Positions 5,863-34,174 of a DNA stretch of 64,000 bases are shown piece after piece. The DNA is taken from positions 372,001 to 436,000 of the forward strand of contig NZ_JAJQXW010000003.1 of NCBI RefSeq assembly GCF_021246445.1. Direction: 5' to 3'. The notes beneath the pieces are model-generated. The model saw only the letters and a program-made list of their open reading frames with translations. It was not told where the DNA came from and did no database searches. The translations under genes were made by a program, and so were the position numbers. The stretch's first letter is position 1. Every line of letters starts with the position of its first letter. The stretch comes from Rhabdothermincola salaria (lineage in GTDB: Bacteria; Actinomycetota; Acidimicrobiia; Acidimicrobiales; Acidimicrobilacustridaceae).

Positions 5863-7016
5863 CCGGCGTCCTCGCGATCGCGTCCGGGCGTCGATGCCGC
5901 GGCGCGGGCGACCTCGCGCAGGGCCACGTCGACGACCGCTCCCCCGCCCGCGGCCCACGACGACGCCGCGGCGGCGGCGGCCACCAGCCCGGCGAGGGGG
6001 TCGGCCACCGCGTCGCCGACGAAGGTCGGCACCCCATCGGCGTCGCGCCGCACCAGCCCACCGGCCGCCGCCGCGTCGTCGCCGAAGCCCACCCGGTTGC
6101 GCCAGGGTCCGGTGCGGCCGTAGGCCGTGATCGACACCCACACCCGCCCCGGCCCGCCCGCCACGACCGCCGCGGGCTCGATGCCCATCTGCTCGAGGGC
6201 TCGGGGACGCGAGCCCTCGATGACCACGTCGGCGGCGGTCAGCAGGTCGGCCAGCGCCCGGCGCCCCTCGGTGCTCGCCAGCGGCAGGGCGAGGTGGCGC
6301 TTGTCCCCGTTGAGGTGATCGAAGAACGCGGGCGAGCCGCGGCGGGCGCCGTCCGGACGGGTGGTGGACTCCACCTTCACCACCTCCATCCCGAGCGCGG
6401 CCAGCAGCCGCCCGCACAACGGTCCGGCCCACAGCGACGACAGGTCGACCACCCGCGCCGGGGTCGCCTCCCCCCGGCTGCGGTCCGCCCCCGGACCGAC
6501 ACGGGTGGCCACGTGGGTGCGGCTGGGGTCGAGCATCCCCCGGTCGACCAGCTGGGCATCGCCCACGTGCCGACCGGCGTCGTCGTCGGGGACGGCGGCC
6601 ACGGCCAGGCCGACCAGCTGGCCCTGCTCGACGACGTCGAGGGTCGGTCGCCGGCGTACGGCCTCCCCCACGGCTCGCCAGAGCGCCGGTGAGCGGACCG
6701 GTCCGTCGGGGTCGATCCCCAGCCAGGCCGGCAGCAGGTGGACGTCGTCGTGGCGCGCCAGGTTGGCCGCCACCCAACCGTCGGCCGTGGCCATGATCCG
6801 GCACGATCCGCCGGGCGACACCGGACCGGCCGGCCGGTGCCCGAGCAGGGTGGCCCGTTCGAGCAGCACGGCCCCCGCCTGGTCCGGGTCGAACGGCGCC
6901 GCCCGACCGAGCCGGCGAGCGGTGGCGGCCAGCTCGGCCAGCGCCCGGCGGGCGACGGCCTCGGCCGGGGCAAGGCCGGGCCAGCCGTCAGGAGGTGAGG
7001 TCGGCGAGAACCTCAC
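5859..7016 (-). CDS. class III CoA-transferase (CaiB/BaiF) with unusual domain order
   Basis: The frame ends at 5859 and has no ATG after the upstream ligase stop. The first usable start is a GTG at 7014-7016, inside the 3' end of the ligase gene, giving about 385 residues. The middle of the protein carries the typical N-terminal signature of the family (RVVDLSSLWAGPLCGRLLAALG...VVKVES, then FDHLNGDKRHLALPL) at about 205-270. It is preceded, not followed, by a segment resembling a C-terminal part of the family (GSCRIMATADGWVAANLARHDD). I recall similar actinomycete proteins with this order, so it may be a stable subfamily. It should move CoA between acyl groups in the cytoplasm. Confidence is lower for the exact start. 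Confidence 0.8.
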   Translation of the reverse strand: MRFSPTSPPDGWPGLAPAEAVARRALAELAATARRLGRAAPFDPDQAGAVLLERATLLGHRPAGPVSPGGSCRIMATADGWVAANLARHDDVHLLPAWLGIDPDGPVRSPALWRAVGEAVRRRPTLDVVEQGQLVGLAVAAVPDDDAGRHVGDAQLVDRGMLDPSRTHVATRVGPGADRSRGEATPARVVDLSSLWAGPLCGRLLAALGMEVVKVESTTRPDGARRGSPAFFDHLNGDKRHLALPLASTEGRRALADLLTAADVVIEGSRPRALEQMGIEPAAVVAGGPGRVWVSITAYGRTGPWRNRVGFGDDAAAAGGLVRRDADGVPTFVGDAVADPLAGLVAAAAAASSWAAGGGAVVDVALREVARAAASTPGRDREDAG

Positions 7017-22212: not shown

Positions 22213-22740
22213 GTGACCGAGCCCGTCCAGGACCCCACCACCGTCGAGCTGCCCATCGAGGGCAAGGAGCCGATCTTTCGCCACATGGACGACCCCGAGG
22301 TGCCGTGGCAGCTGGTGCGAGCCCAGCGCAACGCCGACGGCACCGAGGCCTACGTCCGCGAGAAGTGGTTCTCGTTCAGCCCCGATCCCCAGTACCTGTC
22401 GCTCTACGCCGAGTACGACCCGGGGATGATGGTGCGCCGCCACGGCCACTACAGCCCCCACATCGTCTTCGTCATCGACGGAGGCCTCTGGTTCGACGAC
22501 CGGTGGTGCCCGGCCGGCACCCACGTGGAGCTGCCGTTCGGCGCCGCGTTCGGCCCGGTGCGCGCCGGCGACGACGGCGCCAAGCTCTTCGAGGTGATGA
22601 TGGGCGACCCCCGCTCCTGGGGCGACCAGCCCGAGGTCTACGAGGCCGCCCTGGCCGAGCAGGGCGTCACGCCCCTGCCCGACCCCCCCATCGACTTCCC
22701 CGACTGGCTGGCCGACCTGCGCACCCACTGGAACGCGTGA
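22213..22740 (+). CDS. cupin-domain protein
   Basis: 175 residues from a GTG 2 nt after the P450 stop. A single cupin barrel is visible: MMVRRHGHYSPHIVFVIDGG is motif 1 (two His in H-x5-H spacing) and ELPFGAAFGPVRAGDDGAKLFEVMMG is motif 2. The metal ligand set is partly atypical, so it may bind a small molecule or metal rather than act as a dioxygenase. Very tight coupling to the P450 suggests action on the same substrate or product. Confidence 0.85.
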   Translation: MTEPVQDPTTVELPIEGKEPIFRHMDDPEVPWQLVRAQRNADGTEAYVREKWFSFSPDPQYLSLYAEYDPGMMVRRHGHYSPHIVFVIDGGLWFDDRWCPAGTHVELPFGAAFGPVRAGDDGAKLFEVMMGDPRSWGDQPEVYEAALAEQGVTPLPDPPIDFPDWLADLRTHWNA

Positions 22741-23000
22741 CGCTCGGCGTGACGTCGATCTGACGAGTCGCCGTCGAGAACGGGGCCCCACCTGTCGGAG
22801 CTCCGGCTCGGCCCGCATCCCAGGGGCCACGGGGCCGAGCGGGACGGTCAGGCGGCTCGGACGAGTTGCGCGAAGCGACATTGCCGCAGCCGAGATCGCG
22901 GCACCAGGCGCGGTGGCCAGCATCGAGACGACGAGGCACGCCACCCTCGTTCACTGAGGCGGACCAGGCGGTCCGTCGGATCTCCGCGCTCGTCCCACCA
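22741..23000. other. intergenic region without recognisable gene
   Basis: This gap holds no convincing reading frame. A short minus-strand frame (22848-23054) has Arg/Ser-rich shadow composition and crosses the operator of the next gene. It marks the change from core-like genes to the accessory stretch 22.7-25.9 kb. Confidence 0.5.
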
Positions 23001-23029
23001 TGAACTACACATTATGTGTAGTTTATAGT
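23001..23029 (+). promoter_or_regulatory. promoter with 21-bp TetR operator (O1)
   Basis: A perfect 21-bp palindrome, left arm AACTACACAT, centre T, right arm its exact complement, occupies 23003-23023. It is followed directly by a good -10 hexamer TATAGT (23024-23029), and TGAACT at 23001-23006 could serve as a weak -35 with a 17-nt spacer. The operator therefore fills the -35/-10 spacer, a classical place for TetR repression. A near copy lies upstream of the TetR gene at 24345-24365. Confidence 0.75.
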
Positions 23030-23056
23030 CCGTCCACGACGAGCAAGGAGACATCG

Positions 23057-23656
23057 ATGAAGCTCACGCTGAACAAGTGGCAAGGACGGACAGCTGCGAC
23101 GGCAGCCTTCGCGCTGGCCCTGGCAGTGCCGATCGGGTGCAGCAGCGACAGCAGCGACGAGGCGGAGCCCGCTCAGCCAGTCGCTGCCGACGAGACGAAC
23201 GCCGACGTCGGTCCGACCACGGTCGAAGTCACCCTGGTCGACTACGGCTTCGAGGGCCTCCCCGACGAGGTCCCTGCCGGAACCAAGCTGACCGTGGTGA
23301 ACGCATCGGACATCGAGGTCCACGAACTGGTGGCGATCCTCCTTCCCGACGGCGAGGAGCGGTCGGCACAGGAGTTGCTCGCGCTCCCAGAGGACGAGCA
23401 GACGGCGCTCCTCGCGGGCCGAGCACCAGCGACGGTGTTGCTGGCCGAGCCCGGCGGTGCGCCGATGATCCCAGCCGTCGGCGACGGGACACTGATCGAG
23501 CCCGGCCGCTACCTCATCACCTGCTTCATCCCCGTCGGAGCCGATCCTGCGGAGTTCATGGCAGCTGCCGCCGAGAGCCAGGGCGGACCGCCGCAGGTCG
23601 ACGGGGGGCCGCCTCACGTCACCCAAGGCATGTACGCCGAGCTACGAGTCACCTGA
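23057..23656 (+). CDS. exported lipoprotein with cupredoxin-like domain
   Basis: 199 residues from the ATG at 23057, preceded by AAGGAG; the longer frame from 23000 would start inside the operator. The signal peptide ends in a lipobox-like VPIGC (Cys about 28). The mature part, after an acidic linker, has strands typical of a cupredoxin fold (VEVTLVDYGFEGLPDEVPAGTK..., NASDIEVHELVAILLP, GRYLITCFIPVG). One His in EVHELV and one Cys in ITCFIP are in positions used for copper in related domains, but the full ligand set is not evident. It is probably an envelope protein, expression controlled by the TetR regulator encoded convergently 47 nt downstream. Confidence 0.8.
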   Translation: MKLTLNKWQGRTAATAAFALALAVPIGCSSDSSDEAEPAQPVAADETNADVGPTTVEVTLVDYGFEGLPDEVPAGTKLTVVNASDIEVHELVAILLPDGEERSAQELLALPEDEQTALLAGRAPATVLLAEPGGAPMIPAVGDGTLIEPGRYLITCFIPVGADPAEFMAAAAESQGGPPQVDGGPPHVTQGMYAELRVT

Positions 23657-23703
23657 GCCCCGGGCCATCTGCGGGTCGGCGCGACGCGCAGATGGCCGAC
23701 CGC

Positions 23704-24321
23704 TCATCCACCAGCGCCGTTGAGCAGTGTCCGGCTGAGGAGCACGGTGAGAAGTTCGCGGTACTGCTCGACGCTCCAGTTTCGCTGAGCGGTCAAGCGC
23801 TGGAGCGTCTCGGGGAACATGAACGACCAGACCAGGTCGGCCCCCGTCTCGATCGTCCAGGGCTCTGCCAACCGGTCTTCACGCGCCAGACGCCCCACGA
23901 GCTCACGGCATCCCTCGTGCCAGACCCGGGATGCGTGCTCCAGGAGCGCCGCCACCTCGGGATCTGAGTCCGCCGCGCCGAGGAGGGCACTGTCGATACG
24001 ACTGATCTTGAAGTGGTACCGCGCCAGGTGAGCGCTGAACTCCGCGATCGTCGTCTCGCTGTCCGGGGCCTCCAGGACGGGGGCGAGGGACCCCTCCAGA
24101 TCCAGCTGCTCGTCGACGTGGCGGTGGAGGGCCAGGAGCAGCTCGCCCCGCGTGGGGAAGTGGAGGTACAGGGCGCGGCGGGTGATGCCGGCCCGCTCAG
24201 CGACCGCCGCCATGGTCACCCGTCGGGGGCCTTCTTCCTCGAGCAGGCGCCACGTCGCATCGAGTGCTGCGGCTCGTGTCCGACGGCTGCGCACGTTGAG
24301 CGGTTCCTCGATGTGACCCAT
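23704..24321 (-). CDS. TetR-family regulator
   Basis: 205 residues from the ATG at 24321. The helix-turn-helix is at about 16-60 (AALDATWRLLEEEGPRRVTM and RAGITRRALYLHFPTRGEL). The ligand domain ends with a C-terminal helix (LLTVLLSRTLLNGAGG). The gene points towards the lipoprotein gene, and both have the same 21-bp operator in their promoters, so self-repression plus control of the lipoprotein is the simple model. No enzyme gene lies in this two-gene unit, so the inducer is unknown. Confidence 0.9.
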   Translation of the reverse strand: MGHIEEPLNVRSRRTRAAALDATWRLLEEEGPRRVTMAAVAERAGITRRALYLHFPTRGELLLALHRHVDEQLDLEGSLAPVLEAPDSETTIAEFSAHLARYHFKISRIDSALLGAADSDPEVAALLEHASRVWHEGCRELVGRLAREDRLAEPWTIETGADLVWSFMFPETLQRLTAQRNWSVEQYRELLTVLLSRTLLNGAGG

Positions 24322-24344
24322 TGCCGAATCAGTCCCTGCCTACC

Positions 24345-24365
24345 AACTACACATCAAGTGTAATT
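24345..24365 (-). promoter_or_regulatory. second TetR operator (O2), autoregulatory
   Basis: This 21-bp site has a left half identical to O1 (AACTACACAT, 10 of 10) and a right half matching in 8 of 10 positions. It lies 24 nt upstream of the TetR start codon. Having both sites in opposite orientation to convergent genes and nothing similar elsewhere in the window makes specific binding by this TetR protein likely. Confidence 0.7.
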
Positions 24366-24434
24366 ATTGCGATGATCGGACGATAGCGCCGGGCCGAACC
24401 GCGCCGCGCCGTCGTCTCGATCGAGCGAGAGAGG

Positions 24435-24740
24435 TCAGCTCGCTGCCGGGTCGTCGGCGTGCCAGCGTGCCATGTGGTCTGCGTGGGTCTCGAGGTAGGC
24501 CCCTGGCTGGTAGTGGGTGTCGTAGAAGCCTGTGTCGAGGTGAACCGCCTGCACGAAGCCCGACAGCACCATCGTCGTGAACGTGTTCGGGAACCTGCCG
24601 TACGTGTCGTAGACGTACTGGGCGACGTCGGTGAGCGCATCGACGAACTCATCGGAATGCGGCGTGACACCTTCCTCGACGGCCGTCGCGGCTCGCCATG
24701 GACCGGGGGCTCCTGGGTCATAGGCGCCATCGGGACCGAA
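24435..24740 (-). pseudogene. C-terminal remnant of a protein gene
   Basis: On the minus strand an open frame of about 102 codons ends with TGA at 24435-24437. It reads FGPDGAYDPGAPGPW ... RFPNTFTTMVLSGFVQ ... TGFYDTHYQPGAYLETHADHMARWHADDPAAS. The composition is that of a real folded protein with many Tyr, His and aromatic residues and few Arg-runs, unlike shadow frames. There is no start codon before an internal ATG near 24572, and an in-frame stop (TAG) at 24741-24743 cuts the 5' side. I do not recognise the family. It is best explained as the 3' end of a gene whose front was lost when the accessory DNA was inserted. Confidence 0.55.
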
Positions 24741-24743
24741 CTA

Positions 24744-25010
24744 GGCACGGGGCGCCCCACTCCCATCGCAGGGGTGGGCCATCGGAGCGGGCCTGACCGC
24801 CACCACCGCCGAGGAGGGGCCTCGTCCAGTGATGGTCGCGATGCCCCTCGGCGACGGAACGCCCGAACTTCAGAGCTGCGAGCTGTCCAGCGAAGAGCTC
24901 GTCGCCCTCGGTGCTGACGTCCACACGGTCGACGATGCCGGCCAGCGCGCGGCTGGCGAACAAGTGCGGTAGTCCTCAGACCGCCGCACTCCCGGCGTTG
25001 CGGGGCACCC
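24744..25010. other. gene-poor stretch with ambiguous short frames
   Basis: Two opposite frames are weakly plausible: a plus frame from the ATG at 24832 (about 46 codons to 24972) and a minus frame 24718-24963 (start MFASRALAGIVDRVDV). Neither has a ribosome site or a family I know, so I call no gene. Degraded remains of the same lost gene as the downstream fragment are possible. Confidence 0.4.
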
Positions 25011-25046
25011 TCGACAGTCCCGGTCGGTGGTTATACTAATTGGTAT
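25011..25046 (+). promoter_or_regulatory. leaderless promoter and operator of the toxin-antitoxin pair
   Basis: TCGACA (25011-25016) and TATACT (25032-25037) resemble -35 and -10 boxes with a short 15-nt spacer. The imperfect palindrome ATACTAATTGGTAT (25033-25046) runs from the -10 box into the ATG at 25045. The start codon lies only 7 nt after the -10 box, so the transcript should be leaderless. The palindrome is a natural binding site for the AbrB-type antitoxin. Low local GC stands out from the surroundings. Confidence 0.6.
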
Positions 25047-25275
25047 GACTCACCGGGTGGGCCCCAAAGGCCAAGTCGTGATTCCCAAGGAGCTGCGTGA
25101 CGAGATGGGGATCGAACCTGGCGACGAGGTGAGCTTCTGGCGCCACGATGACCACGTCGCCCTCCGCCGCGCGGGTCGTCCGGCGAACCTGCGGGGTCGC
25201 TTCCTCGCCTCGGAACTGACCAACGAGTTGGAACGAGAACGTCGTGCCGATCGGGATCGTGAGGCCGTCCGGTGA
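25045..25275 (+). CDS. AbrB/MazE-type antitoxin
   Basis: 76 residues from the ATG at 25045. The swapped-hairpin AbrB domain is complete (RVGPKGQVVIPKELRDEMGIEPGDEVSFW), followed by a charged, helical tail (ELTNELERERRADRDREAVR) of the kind that wraps the toxin. The stop overlaps the VapC GTG start by 4 nt (GTGA). It should neutralise the PIN ribonuclease encoded next and repress the shared promoter. Confidence 0.92.
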   Translation: MTHRVGPKGQVVIPKELRDEMGIEPGDEVSFWRHDDHVALRRAGRPANLRGRFLASELTNELERERRADRDREAVR

Positions 25276-25661
25276 GCGTCGTCCTGGACTCGTGGGCGGT
25301 GCTGAGGCTGCTCGAGGACGACGGACCAGCTGCTCGAACGGTCGAGGAGCTCCTGGAACGTGACCGGCCCGTGATCTCGTGGATCAACCTCGGCGAGGTG
25401 TTCTACGTGCTTCGTCGGCTCCACGGCGACGATGCCGCTCGAAGCACGGTCCGTGACGTGCGTGACGCAGTGGAGGCGCGCCTACCCGACGAGCGCCTCG
25501 TACTCGACGCCGCTCGCATCAAGTCTGAGGTTGCGATGTCCTACGCCGATGCCTTCGCGGCAGCCCAGGCCGTGGCTCTCGACGCCGAGCTCTGGACCGG
25601 CGATCCAGAGCTTCTCGTGAAGGACTGCGCATGGCGGTGGCGAGACCTGCGAACGACGTAG
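25272..25661 (+). CDS. vapC: VapC-type PIN-domain toxin
   Basis: 129 residues, a normal VapC length. The four acidic residues of the PIN active site are in place: D6 (VVLDSW), E42 (NLGEVFY), D93 (YADAFAAA) and D111 (TGDPEL). VapC toxins cut tRNA or rRNA at specific sites when the antitoxin is lost. It is translated from a GTG overlapping the antitoxin stop. With the broken gene fragment upstream this pair looks like acquired accessory DNA. Confidence 0.92.
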   Translation: MSVVLDSWAVLRLLEDDGPAARTVEELLERDRPVISWINLGEVFYVLRRLHGDDAARSTVRDVRDAVEARLPDERLVLDAARIKSEVAMSYADAFAAAQAVALDAELWTGDPELLVKDCAWRWRDLRTT

Positions 25662-25894
25662 GTGTCGCCGCCGAGCCGGCGATCGGAGACGCCTCACTCG
25701 GCGGAGCGAAGCCGGATCGGAGCTGCGCCTCACCGCAGACTCCGCCCCGTCGGTCTGAGGCCACGACCTCGCAGCCGCCCCTGCCCACGGGTCGGCAGAG
25801 CGCGTCTCTCGACCGCCGGCGCGCCACGACTCTTGGTCGCTGATCAGCGCTGGCGACCGCCGACACCACGTCTGGACGGGCGCAGAGTAGGAGC

Positions 25895-26551
25895 TCACCC
25901 CTCCCAGAGGGGTTCGGGGACCTCGAAGCCGACCGGTTGGCCCCACTGGTTGCGGAACGACACCTCGTGGGCCGGTTGGCGGGCGGCCACGCCCCACCTC
26001 CCGGTGGGGTAGCCGAAGGACACACAACAGCCCATGTGCCAGCCCTCCTCGGCCGGCACGCCGAGGATCTCCTTGGTCTCGGCATCGTGGAACGCCAACG
26101 CCTGGGTGAGCGACGTGCCCACCCCCTCGGCGCGGGCCGCCAGCTGGGCGCTCCACACCGCGGGGTACAGCGAGCTGCCGCTCGGGTCGCCCTGGGCGAA
26201 GGCGAACAGGTAGAGCGGCACGTCCTCGAAGTGGTCGGCCAGCCACTGCGCCGAGCGCTGCACGGCCAGGAACGACTTGGACTCGTCGAGGTCGGGGTCG
26301 GCGTGGGCGGCGGCGACGCGATCGGCGTAGAAGTTGGACCACAGCCAGCTCATGGCCTGGCGGTAGATGGGCCCCAGCTTCGCCTTCACGTCGGCGTCGT
26401 CGACGAGGAGGAACCGCCAGTTCTGGGTGTTGCCGCCGCTGGGGGCCCGGATGGCGGCGTCGAGGATCTTCTCCTGCACCTCCGTCGGGATGGGGTCGGG
26501 ACGCACCCGGCGCATGGCCCGGGTGGTGTACAGGGCCTCGTAGACGTCCAC
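25895..26551 (-). CDS. nitroreductase-family FMN oxidoreductase
   Basis: 218 residues. The FMN-binding pattern is typical: TTRAMRRVRPDPIP at the N-terminus, RAPSGGNTQNWRFLLVDD, a central insertion with many aromatic residues (YRQAMSWLWSNFYADR), SLTQALAFHDAET and the C-terminal GYPTGRWGVAAR. It should be an NAD(P)H-dependent flavoprotein dimer; natural substrates of this branch are usually not known. It follows the SCO6745-like gene with a 1-nt gap, so the two are one transcription unit. Confidence 0.92.
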   Translation of the reverse strand: MDVYEALYTTRAMRRVRPDPIPTEVQEKILDAAIRAPSGGNTQNWRFLLVDDADVKAKLGPIYRQAMSWLWSNFYADRVAAAHADPDLDESKSFLAVQRSAQWLADHFEDVPLYLFAFAQGDPSGSSLYPAVWSAQLAARAEGVGTSLTQALAFHDAETKEILGVPAEEGWHMGCCVSFGYPTGRWGVAARQPAHEVSFRNQWGQPVGFEVPEPLWEG

Positions 26552-34143: not shown

Positions 34144-34174
34144 CGTCGGCGGAAGACCAGGTCTTCCGCCGACG
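34144..34174 (-). terminator. hairpin terminator of surface-protein gene 3
   Basis: A perfect 14-bp stem (CGTCGGCGGAAGAC and complement) with a CAG/CTG loop lies 13 nt after the stop of paralogue 3. No T-tract follows on the minus strand, so termination may be partial or factor-assisted. Confidence 0.7.

Follow-up and report, generated by a model that had tools for sequence, protein, structure and literature searches.

According to a survey of TetR-family regulators in streptomycetes (Ahn et al. 2012, PMC3511530), 67% of the regulator genes are divergent to their neighbour and 67 of 372 (18%) are neither divergent nor co-transcribed; for this third group, the target cannot be read from the order of the genes. 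The regulator gene described here belongs to that class, and the gene that it faces encodes a lipoprotein with features of cupredoxins. The number of residues between the Cys and His ligands of cupredoxins is given in PMC4059628 as 2-4 for blue and red cupredoxins, 6 for AcoP and 7-8 for green nitrite reductases.

The window, that is the whole 64-kb stretch of DNA that was analysed (G000:C3:372001-436000), belongs to a genome of 3,908,307 bases in 7 contigs. The lipoprotein gene (23057-23656, + strand, 199 aa) and the TetR-family gene (23704-24321, - strand, 205 aa) lie tail to tail with a stop-to-stop gap of 47 bp, their coordinates and strands confirming the convergent arrangement proposed in an earlier sequence-only reading. 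The gap is spanned by an inverted repeat with 25-nt arms (23654-23706), which enters both ORF ends by a few bases. The predicted hairpin has a folding energy of -38.4 kcal/mol on the + strand (z -4.79, equalled by 0 of 200 shuffles) and of -35.7 kcal/mol on the - strand (z -2.75, equalled by 3 of 200). A terminator scan that requires a T-run made no call at this place; the hairpin is probably a two-way terminator common to both genes.

Within the order or closer, 15 of 99 genomes have a relative of the lipoprotein at E 1e-3 or better; across the class, 31 of 395 have one at E 1e-20. Both counts include the genome of the window. The residue expected to carry the lipid anchor, Cys28 of the lipobox, is invariant in all 15 aligned family members; the lipobox itself reads VPIGC, with an atypical Pro at -3, most relatives having LAAC- or LAGC-like motifs. 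His89, Cys156, His187 and Met192 are likewise invariant in 15 of 15 members and follow the order of type-1 copper ligands, with a spacing of Cys-x30-His-x4-Met in the window protein. The C...H-x4-M arrangement was found in 38 of 39 lipoprotein-family loci (32 through a pattern search, the other 6 on visual inspection), a set in which one locus (L038) is broken off with its match split between two pieces and two others (L035 and L036) look like copies. A profile of the family matched 6kol, a blue copper protein, with E 7.7e-4 and auracyanin A with E 0.021. In the 6kol alignment, His89 and Cys156 are paired with His and Cys, including the C-x-x-P context, and a separate, negative-scoring piece aligns PPHxxxGM with PAHxxxGM of 6kol. 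We take the aligned residues of 6kol to be its copper-binding ones.

These profile matches and the four invariant residues support the cupredoxin-like character proposed for the protein by the sequence-only reading, and copper binding is, on this sequence evidence, a fairly likely property of the lipoprotein. It is nevertheless called cupredoxin-like here and is not filed as a member of the cupredoxins, because its Cys-His spacing of 30 residues, in a family where the 32 pattern-matched loci range from 11 to 31, lies beyond the 2-8 given for type-1 cupredoxins in PMC4059628. The same discrepancy favours a non-copper alternative, in which the H/C/H/M set has been kept for structure or for another metal, for example. 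That alternative would also fit the results of the model searches, as the window protein has no match in Pfam or NCBIfam and 14 of the 15 family members have none to Copper-bind (PF00127). A single-sequence AlphaFold2 prediction, with a pLDDT of 35, was too poor to show whether the protein has the Greek-key beta-sandwich of cupredoxins. However, the strict conservation of the four residues in 15 of 15 members, their alignment with the H, the C-x-x-P and, in the negative-scoring piece, the P-x-H-x-x-x-G-M of 6kol, and the one member that does match Copper-bind (E 3.4e-4; another matches Cupredoxin_1, PF13473, with a best E of 0.13) make it the less likely reading, though one with a real chance of being right. 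If copper binding is the correct reading, the family would widen the known range of Cys-His loop lengths several-fold relative to that given in PMC4059628 and would provide natural variants for how loop length sets the properties of the site, a question for which chimeras have been built (PMC7480511). Next to the metal, the lengthened loop could perhaps form a lid that adjusts or an arm for docking. Our literature search found no report on an auracyanin with such loops.

Two matching sites accompany the gene pair. O1 (AACTACACATTATGTGTAGTT, 23003-23023), a putative operator at the lipoprotein promoter, is a 10-1-10 palindrome without a mismatch, as the earlier reading had stated, whereas O2 (AACTACACATCAAGTGTAATT, 24345-24365), 23 bp ahead of the TetR start codon, is less symmetric and departs from O1 at 2 arm positions. 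Both the agreement of 18 in 20 arm positions and the place of O2 before the regulator gene, which that reading had also claimed, stood up to direct comparison. When the 75 bp around O1 were shuffled 20,000 times with dinucleotides kept, a perfect odd palindrome with 10-nucleotide arms arose once. The window holds two such palindromes, O1 and one starting at 34149, whereas 40 shuffled versions of it had 0.375 on average. The second one, at 34149-34169, reads GCGGAAGACCAGGTCTTCCGC. Because it equals O1 in size, the argument that O1 is improbable on its own was toned down: as a bare palindrome O1 is only mildly unusual, and the strong signal is the pairing of O1 with O2. When the whole genome was scanned with AACTACACATNATGTGTAGTT, only O1 and O2 were found at up to 3 mismatches, and the reversed control gave no place; a looser 14-base pattern at up to 2 mismatches retrieved O1, O2 and one further place, compared to one place for its control. 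The genome scan that the sequence-only reading had suggested thus did not bring up many unrelated O1-like sites.

The regulator matches the TetR_N helix-turn-helix model (PF00440) with 55.6 bits for a cut-off of 24, and its C-terminal part, the putative ligand domain, gives 15.3 bits with TetR_C_6, below the cut-off of 27. No NCBIfam equivalog scored above its cut-off with this protein. The best solved structures by profile are Mce3R, NalD and TtgR (E 4.9e-16 to 4e-14). According to the PF00440 match and the alignment, its recognition region is ITRRALYLHF.

To compare operators, relatives of the regulator were gathered by protein similarity alone, with the operator ignored. The named genomes contributed 37 TetR loci, three of which (L047-L049) match across most of the protein, and a sample of the phylum had matches at E 1e-24 or better in 16 of 396 genomes, that of the window included. 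Seven usable near relatives with 38-46% identity (L047-L049 and L138-L141), among them proteins of Nocardioides and two of Actinomadura, the others being from genomes of the same phylum as the window, were set against 12 distant TetRs with 33-36% identity from the order-level and phylum searches, one of which (L150) has a stop within its match. The comparison omits the other 34 loci of the named genomes, which mostly match in the DNA-binding part only and which had no site at up to 5 mismatches when scanned, as well as L142, where a contig end cuts the gene and which would be an eighth near relative, and a second match in G246, for which the flanks were not included.

An O1-like site with 3-4 mismatches was found within 150 bp upstream of tetR in 6 of the 7 near relatives, and at each of these six loci none of 200 shuffles was as good. 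The seventh, L140, had nothing better than 11 mismatches in that interval, where 117 of 200 shuffles were as good. None of the 12 distant TetRs had a site below 7 mismatches in the same interval (range 7-10). The comparison loci, 681,493 bases in total, contain 13 sites with up to 5 mismatches. All of these belong to the seven near relatives, and 11 are no more than 100 bp from the tetR start. The other two stand in tandem in L140, at a distance of 1.25 kb on the upstream side of tetR and directly 5' of a DUF427-type gene heading a run of genes, with PNPOx last, that leads into tetR. As the sites were scored by their likeness to O1, the consensus of the relatives is biased towards O1. The recognition helix divides the two groups in the same way, with an RR pair in 7 of 7 near relatives and RQ in 12 of 12 distant TetRs. 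Upstream of several RQ regulators (L143, L147, L152 and L153) there are palindromes of the type TTTACAC-N-GTGTAAA or of the long form TTACACCGTGTCAATTGACACGGTGTAA. A code relating the RR or RQ helix to the type of operator is therefore a possibility.

Since the sites track the near subfamily and its RR helix and are absent from the distant TetRs, recognition of O1 and O2 by the regulator of the window is likely. The claim of a TetR gene with two matching operators thus held, as the genome has none beyond these two when 3 mismatches are allowed and the link between subfamily and operator recurs in the phylum. A degenerate form of the operator was searched at up to 1 mismatch in 396 genomes of the phylum and was found at 4 places in 3 genomes, hardly more than the 3 places in 3 genomes of the reversed control, so that only the locations of the sites are informative; in two of the three genomes (G000 and G465) the site adjoins this type of TetR. 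The degenerate pattern missed the operators of G139 and G213, and the operators must therefore drift. Literature matches to the letters of the operator looked, among those listed, unrelated by title. AACTnCACAnnnTGTGnAGTT is offered as a testable operator for a TetR subfamily whose member in the window matches no NCBIfam equivalog above its cut-off and, among solved structures, only distant ones. More generally, where gene order gives no hint, the target of a convergent TetR may be suggested by comparing operators between genomes.

The association of the operator with the lipoprotein has a narrower distribution. At the 39 lipoprotein-family loci, some with short flanks, no O1-like site was found, the best place having 6 mismatches, and in five lipoprotein-bearing genomes a scan that allowed 3 mismatches found none. 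A paralogue with 54% identity in the same genome has no O1-like site at its locus (L030, G000:C5:241500-254500); a gene near it resembles, by its start, that of an ECF sigma factor (positions 6019-6624 and 7269-8900 of L030 for this neighbourhood). Within the order or closer (98 genomes), no TetR match at E 1e-15 or better exceeded 37% identity among the matches listed (up to 31 candidates per genome). A conserved TetR-lipoprotein pairing was rejected on the grounds of these two results, the lack of a close TetR in the order and of an O1-like site at the lipoprotein loci. Among the 39 loci, for some of which (L161-L183) the flank of at most about 1.5 kb covers close neighbours only, a TetR gene lies directly beside the lipoprotein gene in only two other genomes, in tandem in G042 and divergently in G005, where the pair stands at two places of one contig, apparently as copies. 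These neighbouring TetRs are of different types and have no O1-like site, and their adjacency is too weak to be counted as support. Because the loci of the relatives lack the operator, the argument for control of the lipoprotein gene comes from O1 itself, in this genome. It is fair, as had been suggested, to call the lipoprotein an unusual target: the operator is found at none of the 39 family loci, and a literature search for TetR regulators linked to cupredoxins or blue copper proteins listed no paper describing such a pair by title or by the start of the abstract, which does not imply its absence from print.

At the lipoprotein promoter, the hexamer TATAGT (23024-23029, + strand), a 5 of 6 match to the -10 consensus, begins directly after O1. 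The best -35 at a 17-bp spacer is TGAACT (23001-23006, + strand), which matches at 3 of 6 positions and shares four bases with O1. The -10 is putative, as a scan for sigma-70-type promoters from 22800 to 24600 passed none. The sequence-only reading had put O1 exactly between the two hexamers; O1 does abut TATAGT, but the weak -35 overlaps O1 and the scan made no call, so that O1 lies between the hexamers only approximately.

This placement bears on the mode of control. From the sites and their recurrence, we regard repression of both genes by TetR bound at O1 and O2 as quite probable. An improbable alternative is that it binds both sites as an activator or mixed regulator of the lipoprotein gene, or that it mainly autoregulates, O1 being a weak secondary site. 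The poor -35 around O1 would suit an activator, as activated promoters often have a poor -35, and nothing like O1 was found at the other lipoprotein loci examined; however, O1 abuts the -10 and overlaps the position of the -35, which is a repressing place, and it is more symmetric than O2.

Most likely, then, the regulator is an autorepressing TetR that would free both genes when it binds a small molecule. A TetR dimer would occupy O1 and O2; at O1 it would cover the stretch directly upstream of the -10 and silence the surface-anchored lipoprotein, and at O2 it would limit its own gene. The C-terminal domain would take up an inducer, probably an organic compound rather than a metal, whose uptake would release both genes until fresh TetR resets the repression. 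Outside the membrane, the lipoprotein could act in electron transfer or in holding copper. An organic inducer is proposed because of the genes that adjoin the near TetR relatives, namely MFS transporters (L048, L049), alpha/beta hydrolases (L138, L047), PNPOx (L141, L140), DUF427 (L140) and DUF6069 (L139); these neighbours point to an organic small molecule, and the metal or redox stress that had been put forward as a signal is less well supported. The pair probably forms a small, chemically triggered on/off unit, since it has one rare putative operator that is also found beside the genes of TetR relatives.

The unit is part of a genome-specific interval of ~3.1 kb (22741-25894) between a cupin and a nitroreductase gene. 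In a genome of the same genus (G001), the protein matches of these two flanking genes are 138 bp apart, and the DNA match breaks off at window position 22735 and starts again at 25904, the two edges being separated by 143 bp in G001. Both flanking genes were found on one contig in 22 of the 37 genomes of a family sample; the gap between them is below 300 bp in 20, 1.1 kb in G019 and 3.2 kb in the genome of the window, while in the other 15 genomes one or both matches are missing or lie on different contigs. Because the same two genes adjoin in 20 related genomes, the simplest reading is a derived insert that brought the lipoprotein and TetR genes together with a possible gene remnant and a VapBC-like pair. 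The possible remnant (24435-24740, - strand), found by eye in the frames upstream of tetR, is an open stretch of 101 residues with an unclear start, and its frame reads ...YDTYGRFPNTFTTMVLSGFVQAVHLDTGFYDT... The VapBC-like pair (25045-25661, + strand), outside the regulatory unit, consists of a MazE/AbrB-type antitoxin gene (25045-25275, PF04014, 6.8e-11) and a PIN gene (25272-25661, PF01850, 7e-12). PADLOC gave no match for four insert proteins, and no relative was found in the viral contigs searched. The corresponding gap in G019 (contig C164) measures ~1.1 kb, and the spot between the two genes may for this reason take insertions repeatedly. Base composition was given no weight as a sign of foreign origin, as the insert genes have 66-69% G+C and the window 72%, compared to 68% for a P450 gene outside the insert and 73% for the spacer at 25662-25894.

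That O1 is merely a leftover operator of another TetR target, such as an efflux pump, beside which the lipoprotein gene landed and came under incidental control, would agree with the place of the unit in the derived insert of ~3.1 kb, which also has the possible remnant and the VapBC pair, and with the other genes that adjoin the TetR relatives, but it is very improbable for a perfect palindrome that is better kept than O2 and lies directly at the likely -10, as a decaying site would be expected to drift. We thus retain repression of both genes through O1 and O2, and suggest more tentatively, at odds somewhat below even, that the lipoprotein represents an exported, auracyanin-derived copper family with a Cys-His loop of 11-31 residues, one member of which was captured by a small-molecule-sensing TetR. 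If this capture is true, the locus would provide a chemically induced copper redox lipoprotein.

Compared to local repressors of the TetR/TetA type, the unit is alike in its TetR_N domain, in its proposed working as a one-component switch and in having a palindromic putative operator at the regulator's own gene and at its neighbour, but its genes are convergent and not divergent, its two separate operators are 1.3 kb apart and its target is a cupredoxin-like lipoprotein. The TetR subfamily of L047-L049 and L138-L141 shares with it 38-46% identity, the RR recognition helix and AACTnCACAnnnTGTGnAGTT-like operators; it differs in having 2-3 sites at up to 5 mismatches in 5 of 7 loci, where the window has one site per promoter, and in its neighbours, the transporter, hydrolase, PNPOx, DUF427 and DUF6069 genes named above. 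Mce3R, NalD and TtgR align with the regulator in the N-terminal helix-turn-helix, and NalD and TtgR also in much of the C-terminal domain, in a distant match made on the protein profile alone. As for the lipoprotein, the auracyanin-type blue copper proteins 6kol and 2aan are among the closest known proteins, and 6kol has the residue order and context H...C-x-x-P...P-x-H-x-x-x-G-M of the family with four residues from Cys to His, to which the family adds 7-27 more. Similarly, the green cupredoxin AcoP is, according to PMC4059628, a single-domain protein with classical ligands and a lengthened Cys-to-Met loop, as in the lipoprotein, but has six residues from Cys to His where the lipoprotein family has 11-31.
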